Below are positions 5,298-49,152 of a stretch of 64,000 nucleotides of DNA, piece by piece. Positions within the stretch are counted from its first letter, which is position 1; the number at the start of each line of letters is the position of its first letter. Made by a program: the position numbers and the translations under genes. The stretch spans positions 970,775-1,034,774 of the forward strand of contig NZ_OY781091.1 of the NCBI RefSeq assembly GCF_963676275.1, in the 5' to 3' direction. The notes below the pieces were generated by a model. It searched no databases and was not told where the DNA came from. It worked only from the letters and a program-made list of their open reading frames with translations. The DNA is from an uncultured Cohaesibacter sp. Its GTDB lineage: Bacteria > Pseudomonadota > Alphaproteobacteria > Rhizobiales > Cohaesibacteraceae.

Positions 5298-5719
5298 GCT
5301 GTCCCCCGATCTTGTTGGTTAACAATTACGTTTGACTTCCATGCAATGACTGACGTCGTTGCTCGCATTTTTGGCAGAAATGCTGCGTTTAATGGTTAAT
5401 CAAGATGGTTAACAAAGGGTTAAATAATGTCTGAAAGAGTCCTGTTTGGATGAATTTTATCCATTTGGTTGCATAAAATTGTAACACACGGCTCCGGTTT
5501 TCATGAAATGCAAAATATGAATATTATTAATATTGGCGGTGATTTAAGTATATTTCACTAAGTAATTAAATGTAATAAAATATAATAATGAGATAACAAT
5601 TCCCGTTAAGTGTGAAAATTTCGAGTTTACTATTTTTGATCCCCTTGAAACCGACATCGTGAAACGCAAATACTTGTTATGAATTACGAGCAAGCTCGCC
5701 AAGGAAAAAGGATCACAGC
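5298..5719. other. AT-rich divergent promoter region
   Basis: About 420 bp between the 68-aa gene (minus) and the bacterioferritin gene (plus), strongly AT-rich from 5390 to 5640. It should contain both promoters. I find no convincing Irr/Fur palindrome or RNA gene by eye. Confidence 0.4.
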
Positions 5720-6208
5720 ATGTCAAACGACAAGACCATTGAAAATCTTAATCTGGCTCTCCAGATGGAAATGAGCGCCGCGCATCAATATCAGCTGAAC
5801 GCACAGCGTCTGGATGATTGGGGCCTGGGCAAACTGGCCAACCAGATGCGTGAGGAAATGCGCGAGGAATGGGGCCATTCGGATCGCTTCATCGAGCGCA
5901 TTCTGTTCCTCAAGGGCACCCCGGTTATGGCCTTCGAGAAACCTCCGGTGCTGCATGACTCTCTGGTCGAGCTTTTCAAGGCCGATCTGGCCGATGAAGA
6001 AAATGCCATCCAGACCTATACCAAGGCCTCCAAAGAAGCCTATGAAGTGGGCGATATCGGCTCCAAGGCCCTGTTTGAAGAAATCGTGATCGATGAGGAA
6101 GGCCATAAAGCCTGGCTCGAACTTCAACTGGACCTGATCGAACGTCTCGGAGAGAAAACCTACAGCGCCAAATTCATGTCCACTGGCGGTGAAGAAGACG
6201 AAGCCTGA
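5720..6208 (+). CDS. bfr: Bacterioferritin lacking the haem-ligand methionine
   Basis: Iron-storage ferritin-like protein, 162 aa, forming a 24-mer shell in the cytoplasm. Ferroxidase ligands are all present: Glu17, Glu50, His53, Glu ~93 (LADEEN) and the EEGH motif near 126-129. Family hallmark RFIERILFLKG follows the first site. In E. coli Bfr the residue after Glu51 is Met52, the haem ligand; here the matching position is Trp51 (EEWGHSD), so intersubunit haem binding as in E. coli is unlikely. AAGGA precedes the start. A 12-bp-stem terminator follows. Monocistronic by layout; no Bfd gene next to it. Confidence 0.92.
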   Translation: MSNDKTIENLNLALQMEMSAAHQYQLNAQRLDDWGLGKLANQMREEMREEWGHSDRFIERILFLKGTPVMAFEKPPVLHDSLVELFKADLADEENAIQTYTKASKEAYEVGDIGSKALFEEIVIDEEGHKAWLELQLDLIERLGEKTYSAKFMSTGGEEDEA

Positions 6209-42666: not shown

Positions 42667-43350
42667 TTAGTGCACCAGCATTTCCTTGACGATTTCATCT
42701 CCTGTCAGGGACGCAGGATAGTAGGTTGGCCAGTTGGTAACTTCCTTCAGCAATTCAGCTCGATCATTGCCCCAGTAGAGATGATAGTGATCGGCGTCCG
42801 CCGGAGCGATGCGGTGATCACTAAACTGAATAAACCGAGGGGCCTCACTGTCTCCTTCTGTTTTCTCAAAGATGAACCGGACACCTCTATTGCCCTTCTT
42901 ATACGTCAGGATCTCATAGCCATCTGATTTATAGCTGGCTTTGAGAGCCTGACCGCCCTTATTGAAGGTAACACTACCGCCGTCGATAACGATGCGATCC
43001 ACATCGGTTTTGTAGCCGATGTCATAGTAACTGCGATACTCATCGACGCTCATGGTGCCGTGCTGTGCTTTGTGTTCCATCACCGCATCGAGAGTACCAT
43101 CCTGAAGATAGGGATAAACTGACTGCCAGTTGCCTTGCCAATCAAAAAGTTGGCGATCCTTGATCTGACTGTCCTCGAAATATCCCTTGTAGATGGCGTC
43201 TGACCCATGAGAATGGCTGTCGGATGTTGCATGGCTGTGCTGGTGTGTCGTTTCACCATCAGTGTGTTTATGTTCAGCTGCTAGTGCCGGGGCCAGAAGC
43301 AGTGTGCCTACCAGTAAAGCACCTATGGATACCGTAGCTCCGCTCTTCAT
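42667..43350 (-). CDS. zinT: Periplasmic zinc-binding protein ZinT
   Basis: 227 aa. Sec signal (residues 1-24, cleavage near ALA-AEH), a His-rich linker (HKHTDGETTHQHSH...SHSHGS), then the ZinT/YodA lipocalin-like domain: GYFEDSQIKDRQLFDWQGNWQSVYPYLQDGTLD, YDIGYKTDVDRIVIDG and the metal-site pattern FSDHRIAPADADHYHLYWG. ZinT scavenges Zn under limitation and can pass it to a ZnuA-type protein. A long dyad with a Zur-like core lies 19 bp upstream of the ATG, so zinc-dependent repression is likely. No znuABC in the window. Confidence 0.9.
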   Translation of the reverse strand: MKSGATVSIGALLVGTLLLAPALAAEHKHTDGETTHQHSHATSDSHSHGSDAIYKGYFEDSQIKDRQLFDWQGNWQSVYPYLQDGTLDAVMEHKAQHGTMSVDEYRSYYDIGYKTDVDRIVIDGGSVTFNKGGQALKASYKSDGYEILTYKKGNRGVRFIFEKTEGDSEAPRFIQFSDHRIAPADADHYHLYWGNDRAELLKEVTNWPTYYPASLTGDEIVKEMLVH

Positions 43351-43368: not shown

Positions 43369-43412
43369 TTATACGATTTATGTAATGTTATAACGTAACA
43401 TAAATCGTATAA
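43369..43412. promoter_or_regulatory. 44-bp dyad with Zur-like core before zinT
   Basis: Outer arms TTATACGATTTATGT (43369-43383) and ACATAAATCGTATAA (43398-43412) are perfectly complementary. The centre ATGTTATAACGTAACAT (43385-43401) matches the core of the 38-bp palindrome at 48040-48077 at 16 of 17 bases. Confidence 0.7.
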
Positions 43413-43617: not shown

Positions 43618-44175
43618 ATGAGCCTTCCTGTTTTAAAAGGCTTTGCTTCCCGGTAAAGGCTGCTCGCCCTGATGACCGTTCTGGCATTGCCGGTTCTCGG
43701 CATCACTCTCTGGCACTTCTGTTCTACGCGAAGCTGGTTCAACGCCTATCTGTTGCCGTCGCCAGTGGAAATCTGTACCGCAGCCGTGGATCTTTGGGAC
43801 AGGGGGGGCCTCGCCGAGCATATAGAGGTGAGCCTGATGCGAATGCTTGTCGGCTTTGCACTGTCAGGGTCTTCCGCCTTGCTGCTAGCTCCGCTCAACT
43901 ATCGCGTCCCGCTCATTCGGCGCATGACCTTCCTGCCGCTCGAAGCCATCCGGGTGATCCCGCCGCTGGCACGGGTCCCCTTGCTCATCTCGTGGTTCGG
44001 CATCGGGGAGGGGTCAAAACTAGCAGTCATCATCCTTGCCAGCTTCTTCCCCGTCCACCTGTCGCCTTGACGGCGCTCCAGACGGTTGACCCCCAAACTT
44101 CTGCAAATGGCCCAGACCCTTAACCTCAACAAGCTGGCGACTATCCGCTTTGTGCTGCTGCCGGTAGAAAGCCCC
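43618..44175 (+). pseudogene. Decayed SsuC/TauC-type ABC permease
   Basis: Reading from ATG 43618 gives a plausible permease N-terminus but meets TAA at 43654. The same frame reopens at 43672: LALPVLGITLWHFCSTRSWFNAYLLPSP, LMRMLVGFALSGSSALLLAPL, FLPLEAIRVIPPLARVPLLISWFGIGEGSKLAVIILASFFP, which is classic SsuC/TauC. It stops at 44070. The next two frames continue it (LTALQTVDPQ, then KLLQMAQTLNLNKLATIRFVLLP), and it ends abruptly at the neighbouring gene. At least one nonsense mutation, two frameshifts and a 3' truncation. No partner ATPase or binding protein nearby. Confidence 0.8.
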
Positions 44176-44922
44176 TCACTTCAATGTCTGCTTCTTGCCG
44201 TTTGAAGGATAGCTGAGAACGTCAACGGGTTCTCCCTTGCCGATATGGCCTTCCAGAATGTGGTCGATATCCGCCTCATCGACCCCGCCATATATCGTGC
44301 CTTCGGGCCAGACCTGAACGACAGGAGCGAGGCTGCAGGGGCCAAGACAGTTTGTCTTGCAGCTCATCATGCCAGCGCCGCTGTCTCTCAGCTTCAAACG
44401 GTCCTGCTCAGATCTTACATGGCTATAGATGAGGCTCGCTCCAGCGTCGTTGCAAGCTCCCCCCATACAAACCAGCAGACGGTATTTCTGATCGGGCACA
44501 ACGGTTCCCTTTGGCACCTTGATACGCTCCTGGACAATGTCGCTTTCATCCGCCGCAAAGGTCAGCGCCTCGATCATGTCGCTGAGCCTGTCAGTTTCCC
44601 CGATGGGAGGATGCGCGATCCTGATGCGCGGGAAGAAGGCGTCTCCGCGCTGTTCGATCCAGCGATGCACCGATTTTCTGATCCAGCCAGGAAAGGCCGG
44701 TTCCATCGGGAAGATCAGCGAGACGATGATGACCTCTTCCACCCTGTCATCCGCAAGCTCTGTCAGCCTGGTACGCAAGGACGGGGTTCCAAGTTCCTGC
44801 AAGGCATAGGTGACGGCATAATGAGGGTTTCTGGCGATAACGGCATCACACAATCCCTGCAGTTCCTCTCTGGGCTTTGCAGCCATGGCAGCTTTTGCCA
44901 GCAACAGAATGACTGGTTTCAT
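44176..44922 (-). CDS. CbiX/sirohydrochlorin-chelatase-like domain fused to a [2Fe-2S] thioredoxin-like ferredoxin
   Basis: 248 aa. Residues ~1-130 follow the CbiX fold pattern (VILLLAK, YALQELGTPSLRTRLTELADDRVEEVIIVSLIF, RIRIAHPPIGETDRLSDMI). The catalytic His of the usual GHGS motif is replaced (LLAKAAMA), and no His follows the second strand (SLIFPMEPAFPGW). Residues ~155-235 are a thioredoxin-like ferredoxin: CMGGACNDAGAS, CKTNCLGPCSLAPVVQVWPEGTIYGG, with five Cys for the cluster. Last gene of an ABC transporter operon, overlapping the ATPase gene by four bases. Role: perhaps redox handling of imported metal/corrinoid; metal chelation as in CbiX is doubtful. Confidence 0.75.
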   Translation of the reverse strand: MKPVILLLAKAAMAAKPREELQGLCDAVIARNPHYAVTYALQELGTPSLRTRLTELADDRVEEVIIVSLIFPMEPAFPGWIRKSVHRWIEQRGDAFFPRIRIAHPPIGETDRLSDMIEALTFAADESDIVQERIKVPKGTVVPDQKYRLLVCMGGACNDAGASLIYSHVRSEQDRLKLRDSGAGMMSCKTNCLGPCSLAPVVQVWPEGTIYGGVDEADIDHILEGHIGKGEPVDVLSYPSNGKKQTLK

Positions 44923-45692
44923 CGAACATCTCCGCTTTCGATCGGTAACACATAAGGATAGACCTGCACTTCACCGACGAGTGACTCGACCTGATAGGCA
45001 TGATGGATATTGTCCGGCGACAGGACATCCTGCCACGCGCCGCGCGCACGAATGCGCCCTTCAGACAGAAGCACCAGACGCGAGCAATAGCGGGCGGCAA
45101 GAGAGAGATCATGAACCGCGATGATGATCGTCATCTCCGTCTCGGTCGCGAGCATCCGAATGAGGGCCATGGTCTCCATCTGGTACTTGAGATCCAGCGC
45201 CGAGGTCGGCTCGTCAAGCAGCAGCACTTGCGGCTCCTGCACCAGCGCCCGCGCGATGGCCGCGCGTTGCCGCTCGCCGCCAGAGAGGTTTGAAACCTCC
45301 GAGAAGGCATGGTGAGACATGTTGACCCGTTCGAGCGCTGCGATCACCATGTCACGGTCCTTCTCTCCGAGGGCACCACTCAGATGCGGTGTGCGTCCCA
45401 GTTGAACCAAATCGACGACTGATAAAGCCACGTCATCGGGGATATGCTGAGGCACATAGGCAACATGGCGGGCATAGGCGCGGCGCGGATAGGCTTCGAT
45501 TGCCTTCCCGGCCAATGCAATGTCGCCGCTGTTCGGCGTCGCGAGCCGCGCAAGACACTTCAACAATGTGCTCTTGCCAGCACCATTGGCCCCGAGCAGG
45601 CCTACGCATTCCCCCTTGTTCACCGCGAGGGAAATGTCGTCAAGGATCGTGCGTTTGCCATAGGAGAGGGTGAGCTTTTCAATACGGATCAT
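44919..45692 (-). CDS. FecE/BtuD-type ABC transporter ATP-binding protein
   Basis: 257-aa cytoplasmic ATPase of a metal-chelate/corrinoid importer. Walker A GANGAGKSTLL, signature NLSGGERQRAAIARAL, Walker B VLLLDEPTSALD, and AVHDLSLAARYCSRLVLL. The sequence RIEKLTLSYGKRTILDD and the C-terminal SEGRIRARGAWQDVLSPDNIHHAYQVE pattern fit the FecE/FhuC/BtuD group. Four-base overlaps on both sides. Substrate not defined by this subunit. Confidence 0.87.
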   Translation of the reverse strand: MIRIEKLTLSYGKRTILDDISLAVNKGECVGLLGANGAGKSTLLKCLARLATPNSGDIALAGKAIEAYPRRAYARHVAYVPQHIPDDVALSVVDLVQLGRTPHLSGALGEKDRDMVIAALERVNMSHHAFSEVSNLSGGERQRAAIARALVQEPQVLLLDEPTSALDLKYQMETMALIRMLATETEMTIIIAVHDLSLAARYCSRLVLLSEGRIRARGAWQDVLSPDNIHHAYQVESLVGEVQVYPYVLPIESGDVR

Positions 45693-46813
45693 TGCAGAGC
45701 CCTCCGGCGTTGTCTCAGGATCAGATGCACGAAGAGCGGCACGCCCACATAGGCGACGACGATCCCGACAGGAATGACGGCAGGCGAGAAAAGCGACCGG
45801 CCGATGGTATCGGCGACCAGCAGCAGGAAGGCCCCCACGATCATCGAGAAAGGCACAAGCCAGCGATGGTCATTGCCGATCAGCATGCGGGCGATGTGGG
45901 GCGAGACCAACCCGATGAAGCCGATGACCCCGGTGAAGGCGATGATGCAGGCTGTGACAAGCACCGAGAGAAGGGCCGTCACCAGCCGGATCGACTTGAG
46001 ATCATAGCCAAGGGATGCTGCAGTTTCTTCTCCTGCGGCCAGAGCGTTGAGTGCCCAAGCCATGCGCCAGAAGACGGGAGCCGCAATGGCAAGCATGACG
46101 GCCGAGAAGCCGACCTCTTCCCAACCGGCAGCATTGAGCGAGCCAAATGTCCAGTGAACAATCGCCGCCAGCTGCTCCTGCGTGGCAACAAATTGCAGGG
46201 TCGCGGTGAAGGCGCTGAAGAGATAGGTCAGCCCGATGCCTGCCAGAATGATCGTGGTGGCAGAAATGCCGCTCAATCCTGCGATGCCGAGAACGATTCC
46301 GGCACAAAGAAGAGACGAGGCAAAGGCTCCACCAACAATCATGTAGGTGCCGACATGGGGCATCTCCAGCGCTCCGAACAGAATTGCCAGCGCCGCCCCG
46401 AAAGCCGCTGCCGGTGACAGGCCGATGGTGAAGGGGCTGACGAGCGGATTGCGCGTGATCCCCTGCATCATGACGCCCGCGACAGACAGGCCCGCACCGC
46501 CAACAATCGCCATGACGATGCGAGGTAGGCGCAATTGCATCACGACCTTCTCCTGTAGAACGGAAACCTCGGCAAGAAGATTGTCCGGCAGAACGGGGTT
46601 CAGAAGAATCTGAAACGCCTGAGTCAATGAAATGTCATTGGCGCCAAGCGACACCGCAAACACCGAGAGCAGGACCAGCAGCAGCACACCCAGCAGACAC
46701 ATCAAAGAGGCGCGGACCGTCCGGCGAGCATAGGCCCGCCGGATATCCGCTGATTGTCCGCCAGATGCTGCCCCGGACCGAACAACCTCTGAAGGAAAGA
46801 CAGCGCTGTTCAT
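45689..46813 (-). CDS. FecCD-family ABC transporter permease (BtuC-like)
   Basis: 374-aa permease. Seen: LRLPRIVMAIVGGAGLSVAGVMMQGITRNPLVSPFTIGLSPAAAFG, the diagnostic FecCD segment; GISATTIILAGIGLTYLFSAFTATLQF; and VTGVIGFIGLVSPHIARMLIGNDHR-type ending with SLFSPAVIPVGIVVAYVGVPLF. About ten helices. The start at 46813 gives a one-base TGATG overlap with the binding-protein gene; the frame extended to 46891 is not needed. Works with the ATPase above. Confidence 0.87.
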   Translation of the reverse strand: MNSAVFPSEVVRSGAASGGQSADIRRAYARRTVRASLMCLLGVLLLVLLSVFAVSLGANDISLTQAFQILLNPVLPDNLLAEVSVLQEKVVMQLRLPRIVMAIVGGAGLSVAGVMMQGITRNPLVSPFTIGLSPAAAFGAALAILFGALEMPHVGTYMIVGGAFASSLLCAGIVLGIAGLSGISATTIILAGIGLTYLFSAFTATLQFVATQEQLAAIVHWTFGSLNAAGWEEVGFSAVMLAIAAPVFWRMAWALNALAAGEETAASLGYDLKSIRLVTALLSVLVTACIIAFTGVIGFIGLVSPHIARMLIGNDHRWLVPFSMIVGAFLLLVADTIGRSLFSPAVIPVGIVVAYVGVPLFVHLILRQRRRALQ

Positions 46814-47868
46814 CACTGAGCTGCTTCCAGTTCGGAGAATTTGGTCCAGTAACGCCCTGGATAGGTCACGCCCTGAAACTCCTCTAGCCATGTTTTCATG
46901 ACAGCATCGGGATCAACATCCGCAAAGCGATCCGGATAGAGCCATTTCGCAATCGACAAGGCACCGATCATCTTTGAGCAGCCACCCGCCAGATAATAGT
47001 TCATGTGGTAGACATCTCCATTCTTCACCGCTGGCACTTCGTCAAAACCCGGGCGTTCCTTGAGTTCTTCGAAGAAGGCCTTTGAGAAGCTCTCCGGGTG
47101 AAGTGGATAGGAGCCCGGTTGCAGCTTGACGATCATGTCCGGCTGCGCCTTGAGGATCGCTTCGGGGTCCACTTCGTGATTGTGGACGCTGCCCCGCTCC
47201 TTGGGCTGGGTTTCGATATCGACGTCTTCGAAGATGTTGCGACCGCCTGCTGCTTCAATCATGTCGTGCCAGCCGGAACCGCGCAGCACCGAGCGATAGG
47301 GCGTCTTCTCCTCAAGATAGACAGCCTTGCGCTCCACGCCCTGAAGCCGCTCTTCCAGAAGCGCCATATTGCCGGAGTAGAATTCGTTGAGCTTTGCGGC
47401 CTTGTCCTCGGCACCGAACATCTTGCCGAAAGCGGTGATGTTGGAAACATGCTTGAGAACATCCCAACCGGTCAGCACAACGACCGGAATGTCGAACGGC
47501 TCCAGCGTCTTGATGGCTTCCTGCCAGCTGCCGTTGCGCGGAAAGATAACCACGTCCGGGTTCTGCGCAATGATGGCCTCATAATTGGGCTCGCTCTGCC
47601 CTTCGCCCACCAGCATGCCGTCCTTGAGGCTGGGCCAGTAGGTCGGGTCGCGGGTCACCCAGCTGTCAACACCGACAATCACGTCCATACCGGCAACGGC
47701 ACGGACAAATTCGGCATTGTATCGGTTGAAGACGACGGCGCGTTTCAATGGTTTGTCGAAGATAATCGTCCGACCGCTATCGTCGGTAATTTCGATTGGC
47801 GCTGCGATGGCTGCCAGCGTCCAGAGCATTGTGAAGGCGGCTGCGAGCAGCCTAACAAAAAATTTCAT
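46813..47868 (-). CDS. FecB/BtuF-type periplasmic substrate-binding protein
   Basis: 351 aa with a Sec signal (FFVRLLAAAFTMLWTLAAIAA). Class III binding-protein fold: ITDDSGRTIIFDKPLKRAVVFN, GVDSWVTRDPTYWPSL, NYEAIIAQNPDVVIFPRNGSW, WHDMIEAAGGRNIFED, DPEAILKAQPDMIVKLQPG. Likely ligands are corrinoids or metal chelates. ATG 47868 has GGAA 6 nt upstream; ATG 47880 does not. Upstream lie a perfect 38-bp palindrome, a 44-codon ORF and a cobalamin riboswitch, so both zinc (Zur) and cobalamin could influence the operon. Cobalamin/cobinamide is the best guess for the ligand. Confidence 0.82.
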   Translation of the reverse strand: MKFFVRLLAAAFTMLWTLAAIAAPIEITDDSGRTIIFDKPLKRAVVFNRYNAEFVRAVAGMDVIVGVDSWVTRDPTYWPSLKDGMLVGEGQSEPNYEAIIAQNPDVVIFPRNGSWQEAIKTLEPFDIPVVVLTGWDVLKHVSNITAFGKMFGAEDKAAKLNEFYSGNMALLEERLQGVERKAVYLEEKTPYRSVLRGSGWHDMIEAAGGRNIFEDVDIETQPKERGSVHNHEVDPEAILKAQPDMIVKLQPGSYPLHPESFSKAFFEELKERPGFDEVPAVKNGDVYHMNYYLAGGCSKMIGALSIAKWLYPDRFADVDPDAVMKTWLEEFQGVTYPGRYWTKFSELEAAQ

Positions 47869-48039
47869 GATGATTTCCATGTGTCTGTTTGGGTAAAGGG
47901 AACGATGCCTTGTCGTGCAAAGGCCAGACGCTCTTGAGACGGTAATTCCCGCTCGGAAAGACGGTTTTGGGTGAAAAGGGAAGGGATTGGACTAAAACGT
48001 GATTGGCCAAACCAGTCGCACTTGTCCGCTCCACTAACG

Positions 48040-48077
48040 GCTATGAAATGTTATGTTATAACATAACATTTCATAGC
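48040..48077. promoter_or_regulatory. Perfect 38-bp palindrome, Zur-like operator
   Basis: Each half reads GCTATGAAATGTTATGTTA, mirrored exactly about 48058/48059. The core ATGTTATAACATAACAT is shared (16/17) with the dyad before zinT. It lies 172 bp before the binding-protein start. AT-rich ATGTTATAACATAAC-type palindromes are typical of alphaproteobacterial Zur. Confidence 0.75.
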
Positions 48078-48113
48078 TATGAGCGCGAAGTTTGAGTTTC
48101 CCCACCAAACAGG

Positions 48114-48248
48114 TTAGCGATTGGAAAGATAGCCGATGTTCGAGAAGCATAGTCCCGTACTCCAGATGCGGCGAAGCAACCGAAGTCGGGCATGTCTGAT
48201 ACAAACAGATTCAATATGGCGAAGACGCAAAGATATGCGCATTGTCAT
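48114..48248 (-). CDS. Arg-rich 44-aa ORF directly after the cobalamin riboswitch
   Basis: Reads MTMRISLRLRHIESVCIRHA then RLRLLRRIWSTGLCFSNIGY and LSNR. It has nine Arg and three Cys... in fact two Cys (16, 34), and no signal peptide. The ribosome binding site GGAGGAGGG is among the strongest in the window, 3 nt before the ATG, and lies 45 nt after the B12 box, where a riboswitch would be expected to hide it. It ends 37 bp before the Zur-like palindrome. It could be a regulatory leader peptide, a small protein, or the remnant start of a lost cobalamin-regulated gene. No family recognised. Confidence 0.5.
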   Translation of the reverse strand: MTMRISLRLRHIESVCIRHARLRLLRRIWSTGLCFSNIGYLSNR

Positions 48249-48292
48249 GCGACCCTCCTCCAGGACACCCCGCCCGGGTTGAATGAATGGAC

Positions 48293-48470
48293 GTCGGCAG
48301 GTCTCCTGGCTTACAGGTCACTGCGCTCCCCGGCCTTCCCAGATTGGTAAAATCCAGTGGCCAGCTTGAGGGCGCTCTCTGTTTACAGTTGCGGGGACAG
48401 CTTCGGATTGGCGACAGGCTCAAGCATCTGCCGCGCACCGAATTCCCTTTTCATTCCGTCAAGGAAACCG
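48293..48470 (-). promoter_or_regulatory. Cobalamin (AdoCbl) riboswitch
   Basis: On the minus strand, in order: GGGAATTCGGTGCG (48434-48447), GAAGCTGTCCCCGCAACTGTAA, GCCACTG (48355-48361), GGGAAGGC with GGGGAGCG, and the B12 box AAGCCAGGAGACCTGCC (48296-48312). All core elements of the class-I cobalamin riboswitch are present and in order. It reads toward the Arg-rich ORF and the FecCD-type transporter operon. No terminator hairpin with T-run follows, so translational control of the strong ribosome binding site at ~48252-48262 is more likely. Confidence 0.93.
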
Positions 48471-49152
48471 ACAAGAAATTTATCCAACCTTGCGCAGAAG
48501 CTGTCAATGGTCGCCGATGCTTTTCTCCAAAGAGAGGAGTATTTCGTGAAAAGGGCATTTAGCGCACCGGATTCGAGCGATATAGCGCGGCCGACAGTAA
48601 GATCGATCCTGAGCATGAGAGGCACCGAGGCGACACCATCCTTGATTTCGGTTTTGTGCTGAGGCGGCTCAAAGTCCGGATACTCAAGTACAAAGGAATG
48701 AAGTTCTACTATGCCAGTTGCCAAGTAGCAGCCATCGACTTTTTCGGCCCATTCCTGCCGTTTGTAACGGAGAGATCTTGCTTCACAGTATCCCACTAGC
48801 AGACATTCGCTTCATCCTTTTCGATAATGGCAGAATAATTCTCACGATCAGAGTCTACTGACAACACGCTTCATTTTCTTTCTGTATGCTTCTCGTGATT
48901 TGTAGGCGATACAAAGCCTGATTGGAGCTATTCGTGAGAAAAATTCATAAAGACATGCGGACTTTGCCATCTTCTCGATGAAAGCTCCAACCGCTAAATA
49001 CAGGCCAGTCAAACAACATGGGTTGGCTGGGTGCAATTGAGTTTCTCAAAAGTTCAATTGCTCTGGGCATGTGTTGAGGAGACCTTACAGGTGGTCTCTT
49101 CTCATCCAAAGACGGAAGCTCAATCAACCTCGCCAAAGCGAAGGAGAAACGC
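48471..49152. other. Region upstream of the riboswitch and the SDR cluster
   Basis: About 680 bp. The minus-strand frame 48383-48796 overlaps the riboswitch and has no family resemblance, so it is not called. It should hold the riboswitch promoter (minus) and the promoter of the first SDR gene (plus). Possible gene debris, but nothing identifiable. Confidence 0.35.

Follow-up and report, generated by a model that had tools for sequence, protein, structure and literature searches.

Organisation of the locus

The window (the whole 64-kb stretch of DNA analysed) comes from a genome represented by a single 5.03-Mb contig, which carries four cobalamin riboswitches besides the one in the window. 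The sequence-only reading had described, on the minus strand, a riboswitch followed by a ribosome binding site (RBS), a 44-codon open reading frame (ORF), a palindrome and FecBCD-type genes; this succession is confirmed by coordinates and profile matches, and the features are located as follows.

48279..48487, minus strand: cobalamin riboswitch aptamer, AdoCbl-type (RF00174, model positions 1-189 of 189)
48260..48277, minus strand: predicted regulatory hairpin of the expression platform (stem covariation; loop GCGGGG complementary to aptamer CCCCGC)
48253..48261, minus strand: strong RBS GGAGGAGGG, adjoining the hairpin (from the sequence)
48114..48248, minus strand: uORF of 44 codons, the mini-ORF of the earlier reading (sequence and leader comparison)
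48034..48150, minus strand: ORF2, 38 codons, with its own GGAG at 48160-48163 (alignment with loci L053-L057)
48040..48077, minus strand: 38-bp perfect palindrome, putative Zur box, core 48048-48069 (palindrome search and weight matrix)
46813..47868, minus strand: periplasmic binding protein of a BtuF/CbtJ-type importer (PF01497; start codon by comparison with genome G001)
45689..46891, minus strand: FecCD/BtuC-type permease (PF01032)
44919..45692, minus strand: ABC ATPase (PF00005)
44176..44922, minus strand: CbiX-like and [2Fe-2S] ferredoxin-like protein (PF01257, 2Fe-2S-thioredoxin-like; CbiX part from homologues)
43369..43412, minus strand: second putative Zur box, a 44-bp near-perfect palindrome before zinT (36.8 bits)
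42667..43350, minus strand: zinT, periplasmic zinc-recruitment protein (PF09223, E 1.6e-83)

The FecBCD-type assignment of the downstream genes is borne out by the PF01497 and PF01032 matches, the ABC ATPase and the 2Fe-2S-thioredoxin-like protein; for this last gene only PF01257 was reported in the window copy, and CbiX (PF01903) is matched by its homologues in L021 (43% identity) and L016 (41%). The binding-protein gene probably starts at ATG 47868 rather than at 47880, since G001 carries TTG at the position of the window's first ATG. A GTG-started ORF of 60 codons (48034-47852, minus strand) runs from the ORF2 stop across the binding-protein start. The zinT gene starts approximately 0.8 kb past the end of the CbiX/ferredoxin-like gene. 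Between the importer operon and zinT, on the opposite strand (43672-44070, plus), lies a 132-codon fragment of an SsuC-like permease, which is probably a remnant.

The riboswitch and its regulatory hairpin

The RF00174 match at 48487-48279 spans the full model at 127.7 bits (gathering score 31.5; E 9.9e-32), as expected of the complete riboswitch that had been claimed, and which presumably prefers AdoCbl. Immediately behind it, a 5-bp hairpin stem is formed in 98.7% of 75 cells (32-57% in slid controls), with both sides changed at four of the five pairs; this count derives from 18 hand-chosen sequences, 15 of them distinct, and is biased in favour of the stem, which was first spotted by eye on some of them. 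The hairpin loop GCGGGG, read from the sequence, is able to pair with the aptamer loop CCCCGC. Folded alone, the expression platform is no more stable than its shuffles (z 0.65).

The riboswitch accompanies the importer in all six genus genomes that hold the operon and at 11 of 12 outgroup loci, at three of which a gene for a TonB receptor intervenes between riboswitch and importer. Of three further loci, L123 has a riboswitch, and the importer-family members Shinella L124 and L126 have none. L123, on a Ponticoccus plasmid, carries two divergent cobalamin riboswitches (L123:5044-5237 and 5616-5806), one facing nrdHIEF (class Ib ribonucleotide reductase) and the other the importer. The weakest of the five riboswitches of the source genome (L006, G000:C1:1124362-1124580; 86.5 bits) precedes a gene that looks, by eye, like a TetR-type regulator, an unusual target.

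A second version of the leader, with hairpin, RBS, uORF and a second GGAG-ATG, precedes a gene that we name by eye as an SLC13-like permease in six genus genomes (L071, L074, L078, L079, L080 and L081, from about 1501 onward); the G004 copy of this leader has a conserved stretch around GGAGCACGGGA whose frame relative to the uORF is different. We had considered a conserved second RNA element at CGCCGCATCTGGAGTACGGGA, which was dropped and is read instead as a second ribosome binding site. A variant of the CGCCGCATCTGGAGTACGGGA region also occurs behind the second riboswitch, before the SLC13-like gene, in the six genomes (by eye).

The uORF as the immediate target of the riboswitch

We compared 22 leaders in which a riboswitch directly precedes the binding-protein gene. 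Left out were L021, L124, L126 and L133, which have no riboswitch (L133 is a cbtJ-like match in A. tumefaciens, lacking a riboswitch anchor), and L016, L018 and L019, in which the TonB-receptor gene intervenes; for L127-L132 the aptamer end was placed by a sequence anchor, with no covariance model. A uORF with a good RBS starts 28-38 nt past the aptamer in 15 of the 22 leaders, the S. meliloti cbtJKL-type locus among them. From this arrangement the uORF is, on the leader comparison, the immediate target of the riboswitch.

In ten of the 22 leaders (L011, L012, L013, L014, L017, L022, L054, L055, L056 and L057) a uORF overlaps the binding-protein start, with a frame offset of 2 modulo 3 in every case; in L055 and L057 the overlapped start would be TTG, and at four Aminobacter loci the overlap takes the form of an ATGA stop/start. 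From the single frame offset we infer translational coupling between uORF and binding protein in these relatives. Elsewhere the uORF of seven cbtJ-type loci (L122 and L127-L132) stops short of the gene, in L123 an annotated ORF of 41 codons ends 13 nt upstream of it, L020 has uORFs of which none reaches the gene, and the leader of L015 has no uORF.

The sequence-only reading had singled out the mini-ORF of the window as Arg-rich. Its strong RBS GGAGGAGGG (48261-48253) and 44 codons are present, but its Arg content, nine of 44 residues, is only mildly unusual, being reached by 7% of the 558 ATG ORFs of 28-59 codons in the window; rather than an extra element in its own right, the ORF appears to be the common, sequence-variable uORF of this riboswitch type found in the 15 leaders above. 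A functional role in trans for the Arg-rich peptide, for which one might cite its Arg residues and the fact that the ORF is open at all six genus loci, is very improbable: differences within the genus are shared evenly among the three codon positions (8, 11 and 11, for instance, between the window and L056) with no third-position bias, no relationship is apparent by eye among the peptides of L011, L012, L122 and L132, and the peptide has no Pfam or NCBIfam match. The first two of these observations led us to discard the idea that the mini-ORF peptide is conserved.

Identification of the palindrome as a very probable Zur box

The palindrome at 48040-48077 is perfect and gap-free, with 19-nt arms; no other in the window combines these two properties with arms of at least 11 nt. 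The sequence TATGTTATAACATA occurs twice in the window with up to two mismatches, against 0.04 occurrences expected, and the motif lies at three sites of the source genome, namely this operon, zinT and an ABC ATPase gene resembling znuC. Across the 18 genus genomes, the derived motif gave 144 strand matches with up to two mismatches versus 17 for the reversed pattern, near-palindromic sites being counted on both strands.

Pfam analysis of 20 hand-chosen ORFs beside the motif identified seven ZnuA, three COG0523, two ZinT, one znuC-like ABC ATPase and one Fur-family protein; the rest were two GTP cyclohydrolase I, two SBP_bac_5, one alkaline phosphatase and one pyridine nucleotide oxidoreductase. 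These ORFs are 19 of the 38 neighbours at the 30 loci listed, plus the znuC-like one. The 19 neighbours not scanned were far-side, duplicate or apparently antisense by eye, and several loci represent the same gene in different species.

With a weight matrix built from 14 sites, none from the source genome, G001 or a zinT promoter, the palindrome core scores 39.6 bits, above all 14 training sites (28.0-38.2 bits), and two registers that overlap it, shifted by 5 bp in either direction (starts at 48043 and 48053), score 21.4 bits each. The null maxima were 11.7 bits in 40 Markov-simulated windows and 17.9 bits in 20 base-shuffled windows. The same scan found no Zur box at the other four riboswitch loci of the source genome. 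This genome has three Fur-family genes, candidates for Zur, and L062 matches PF01475.

The palindrome is thus almost certainly a Zur box by its sequence, as had been suggested from its zinT operator core, which in the genus is shared with znuA, COG0523, zinT and zur-like genes. The 15-mer published for the P. denitrificans Zur box, GTAATGTAATAACAT, and the window core share 13 of 15 bases by eye (PMC5387054). Unlike the alphaproteobacterial Zur boxes described for P. denitrificans (PMC5387054) and S. fredii (PMC7029138), that of the window extends to 38 bp of perfect palindrome, comprises three registers that overlap, and lies in a B12-riboswitch operon. The palindrome does fold stably as RNA (-27.7 kcal/mol, z -6.65), which would suit a mere RNA or DNA hairpin, acting as terminator or attenuator; we regard this as extremely improbable, since the core recurs before the zinc-related genes of the genus and no run of T follows the palindrome, and it was rejected as a terminator on the latter ground.

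The centre of the box lies approximately 190 nt above ATG 47868; for the 19 chosen genus ORFs, the box is 13-106 nt above the first ATG in 16 cases and 145-240 nt in three. A scan of 47800-48800 for sigma-70-like promoters returned none at the box and none for the riboswitch either, and because the latter was also missed, the scan hardly discriminates between possible promoter positions.

Rewiring of the leader within the genus

A close homologue of the binding protein is present in six of the 18 genus genomes, other matches being distant, and all six have the riboswitch and an open uORF. In G004 and G006 there are two tandem binding-protein genes, the first of which overlaps the uORF, and in G008 and G016 a single gene overlaps it. 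The G016 gene (L057:7947-9010) matches in two pieces in different frames and may be broken or frameshifted.

The source genome (G000) and G001 alone depart from this arrangement. In both, the uORF overlaps ORF2, which occupies the place where the relatives start the binding-protein gene, and it has no overlap with the binding-protein start, which lies 282 bp further down, past the Zur box. In the window, 165 nt separate the ORF2 stop from the binding-protein start. The GTG-started ORF that bridges this distance may allow a translational relay in the window; the G001 version ends after 22 codons. Between G000 and G001 the uORF is identical over its first 35 codons, and the 311 nt of 48180-47870 are 85% identical. 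When a donor of the displaced stretch was sought with these 311 nt in the 18 genus genomes, the whole stretch was found in G000 and G001 only, and six other genomes matched just the Zur core or the leader end. These comparisons point to the window layout as a rewiring of an ancestral leader, with uORF coupling lost in G000 and G001.

The Zur box of G001 (L053) is degenerate, at 28.1 bits, and no Zur box stands before the operon in the other four genus genomes that hold it. The order riboswitch, uORF, Zur box, for which a search among relatives had been proposed, is therefore found in two of the six genus genomes with the operon, one of them with this weaker box, and at none of the other related loci scanned. 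The zinT gene stands beside the operon in G000, G001 and G016, and in G016 the Zur box is at zinT only. In G002, G007 and G016, zinT-like stretches (L067, L068 and L069) contain two TAA stops and are probable zinT pseudogenes.

Zur boxes at related importers

Scanning 21 related loci with the matrix gave high scores at the importer operon in L053, L021 and L016 and a weaker one in L122; the other 17 have no Zur box. In Martelella (L021), a 28.1-bit box lies directly before an operon of CbiX/ferredoxin, binding-protein, permease and ATPase genes, for which no riboswitch was found even at E <= 0.1. At one or two mismatches the motif also precedes, in the Martelella genome, genes for ZnuA with an ABC ATPase, three COG0523 proteins and a further ABC ATPase, as well as one ORF that matches no Pfam family. 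In Acidovorax (L016), a 23.6-bit box, the best motif match in that genome (two mismatches), is followed by a COG0523 gene, the riboswitch directly behind it, a TonB-receptor gene and the importer. The null maxima in 100 simulations were 7.2 bits (L021) and 8.2 bits (L016). Counted up to three mismatches, motif matches show no excess over the reversed control in either genome (19 versus 20 for L021; 7 versus 8 for L016).

The S. meliloti pSymB locus has a Zur-like site of 18.8 bits (null maximum 15.4, but 17.9 in base-shuffled windows), and similar sites score 21.5 bits in S. kummerowiae and 15.6 bits in S. medicae, with no null computed for either. These sites lie 88-104 bp before the riboswitch, next to TTGAC (L122:21121-21142, L127:656-677, L128:557-578). 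In S. medicae the site is present outside the blastn match to S. meliloti, which starts below it; the site is absent from the S. fredii, two Rhizobium, Paracoccus and Agrobacterium loci. For S. meliloti-type loci, the case for a Zur-like box ahead of the riboswitch is suggestive only.

A class-wide search for the binding-protein subfamily (E <= 1e-40) found it in two of 385 genomes, the source genome and G355, too few for statistics; the 4-kb stretch of G355 (L126) has neither a riboswitch nor a Zur-like site. Across the loci scanned, predicted Zur boxes are a recurrent but minority feature of this importer family.

Cargo and the closest known systems

The likeliest cargo of the importer is cobalt or a cobalt chelate, in view of the riboswitch association, the CbiX-like partner and remote homology to the importer on S. 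meliloti pSymB; a zinc chelate may be carried instead. The pSymB locus, for which the sequence record has no annotated genes and which we take to be cbtJKL from its position together with homology and riboswitch, is 24, 35 and 37.5% identical to the window importer in binding protein, permease and ATPase; the latter is a distinct subfamily, and the riboswitch is shared. As identity is only of this order, we infer cobalt rather than assign it. The two systems share the order of binding protein, permease and ATPase, and S. meliloti likewise has a riboswitch, a hairpin with GGGCGGGG, a good RBS and, at the same spacing, a 30-codon Arg-rich uORF. They differ in that the homology is remote, the S. 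meliloti uORF ends before the binding-protein gene, and the Zur-like box there precedes the riboswitch. Co(II) import is reported for S. meliloti CbtJKL, which is encoded on pSymB and controlled by an AdoCbl riboswitch (PMC7689651).

For a uORF as intermediary, the closest parallel is ppe2 of M. tuberculosis, where a B12 riboswitch acts via the out-of-frame uORF uPPE2, which overlaps the gene; the ATGA overlap is shared with the four Aminobacter loci, whereas the riboswitch variant and the gene are different and the window genome has no overlap with the main gene (PMC11260477). A SAM-II riboswitch system similarly has its riboswitch-controlled RBS well above the real start codon, but there the riboswitch is SAM-II, the second AUG is in frame and a terminator lies between the two. 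Among the literature matches listed for this importer class, a scope outside which the subscription literature largely falls, we found neither Zur in connection with a cobalamin riboswitch or cobalt transporter, nor a uORF or leader peptide with a B12 riboswitch.

Proposed regulation

We consider it likely, though well short of certain, that the locus encodes a CbtJKL/BtuFCD-type importer, most probably for cobalt or a cobalt chelate, in which Zur control has been acquired and stacked on a B12 riboswitch, with the coupling between riboswitch and gene broken. In the ancestral arrangement, low AdoCbl would leave the RBS of the uORF open, and, as in the relatives, translation of the uORF would be coupled to the overlapping binding-protein start; AdoCbl would close the RBS through the regulatory hairpin, the loop of which would pair with the aptamer loop, and so switch the operon off. 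In the lineage of the source genome and G001, the 282-bp displacement of the gene start would have broken this coupling, and the new stretch, which carries the Zur box, would have put the importer under Zur. In the source genome the uORF has lost contact with the binding-protein start, which probably weakens direct control of the importer by the riboswitch. A promoter at the box, with a zinc response of the operon, would give a transcript free of B12 control, since the box lies below the riboswitch, and would thus act as a zinc-starvation bypass; alternatively, Zur may block transcripts arriving from the riboswitch.

Several observations count against this reading. The box lies farther above its gene than 16 of the 19 genus boxes, that of G001 is degenerate, and no box is seen at four of six genus operons or at 17 of 21 related loci. 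The bridging ORF and the motif totals equal to the reversed control lower our confidence slightly. Whether Zur would respond to cobalt also bears on it: S. fredii Zur represses at high cobalt as well as zinc, which was ascribed to mismetalation (PMC7029138), and, speaking against the reading, the response of R. leguminosarum Zur is reported to be zinc-specific in a mutant lacking both zinc-binding proteins (PMC12183173). The original proposal, that B12 and zinc both act on one importer, gains from the identity of the box and from the separate arrangements in Martelella and Acidovorax, and loses in so far as direct riboswitch control is probably weakened.

Zur may instead have taken over entirely, leaving riboswitch and uORF as relics and the importer expressed only from a Zur-controlled promoter on which B12 has no effect. 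The loss of uORF coupling in G000 and G001, the 165-nt distance and the Martelella operon, which has a Zur box and no riboswitch, would all fit; however, aptamer, hairpin and uORF are intact, and divergence in a decaying leader should be no slower than in the neighbouring stretch, whereas the uORF codons compared are identical beside a stretch that is 85% identical. We regard the takeover as unlikely. Nor do we give much weight to an AND gate, in which a single promoter above the riboswitch would serve the operon and Zur at the palindrome would block RNA polymerase, so that low B12 and low zinc (or cobalt) were both needed. No promoter was found between palindrome and gene, and the weak S. meliloti-type box, upstream of the riboswitch and next to TTGAC, would itself give AND logic; against this, most of the 19 genus Zur boxes examined are no more than 106 nt from the first ATG, as is usual for operators at promoters. 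Stacked B12 and acquired Zur control with broken coupling remains the reading we prefer.

Implications for B12-riboswitch-type cobalt importers

The comparison suggests that the part worth following is the meeting of B12 riboswitch and Zur more than once at one importer class. The orders observed are Zur box-riboswitch (S. meliloti-type, weak), Zur box-COG0523-riboswitch (Acidovorax), riboswitch-uORF-Zur box (the window) and Zur box alone (Martelella). We advance tentatively, and at rather less than even confidence, that Zur is a recurrent co-regulator of B12-riboswitch-type cobalt importers, wired on several times in different orders. If so, the leaders form a natural series of rewirings, and cobalt uptake would be raised when zinc, or cobalt sensed by Zur, is short, perhaps to substitute cobalt in zinc enzymes; the source genome would thereby bypass the veto of the vitamin on the importer. 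Metal sensors have difficulty in distinguishing zinc from cobalt, and a cobalt-type importer answering both to its end product B12, through RNA, and to a zinc sensor would make cross-talk between these metals concrete and open to test. A uORF relay between riboswitch and gene would also apply to the known cbtJKL system.
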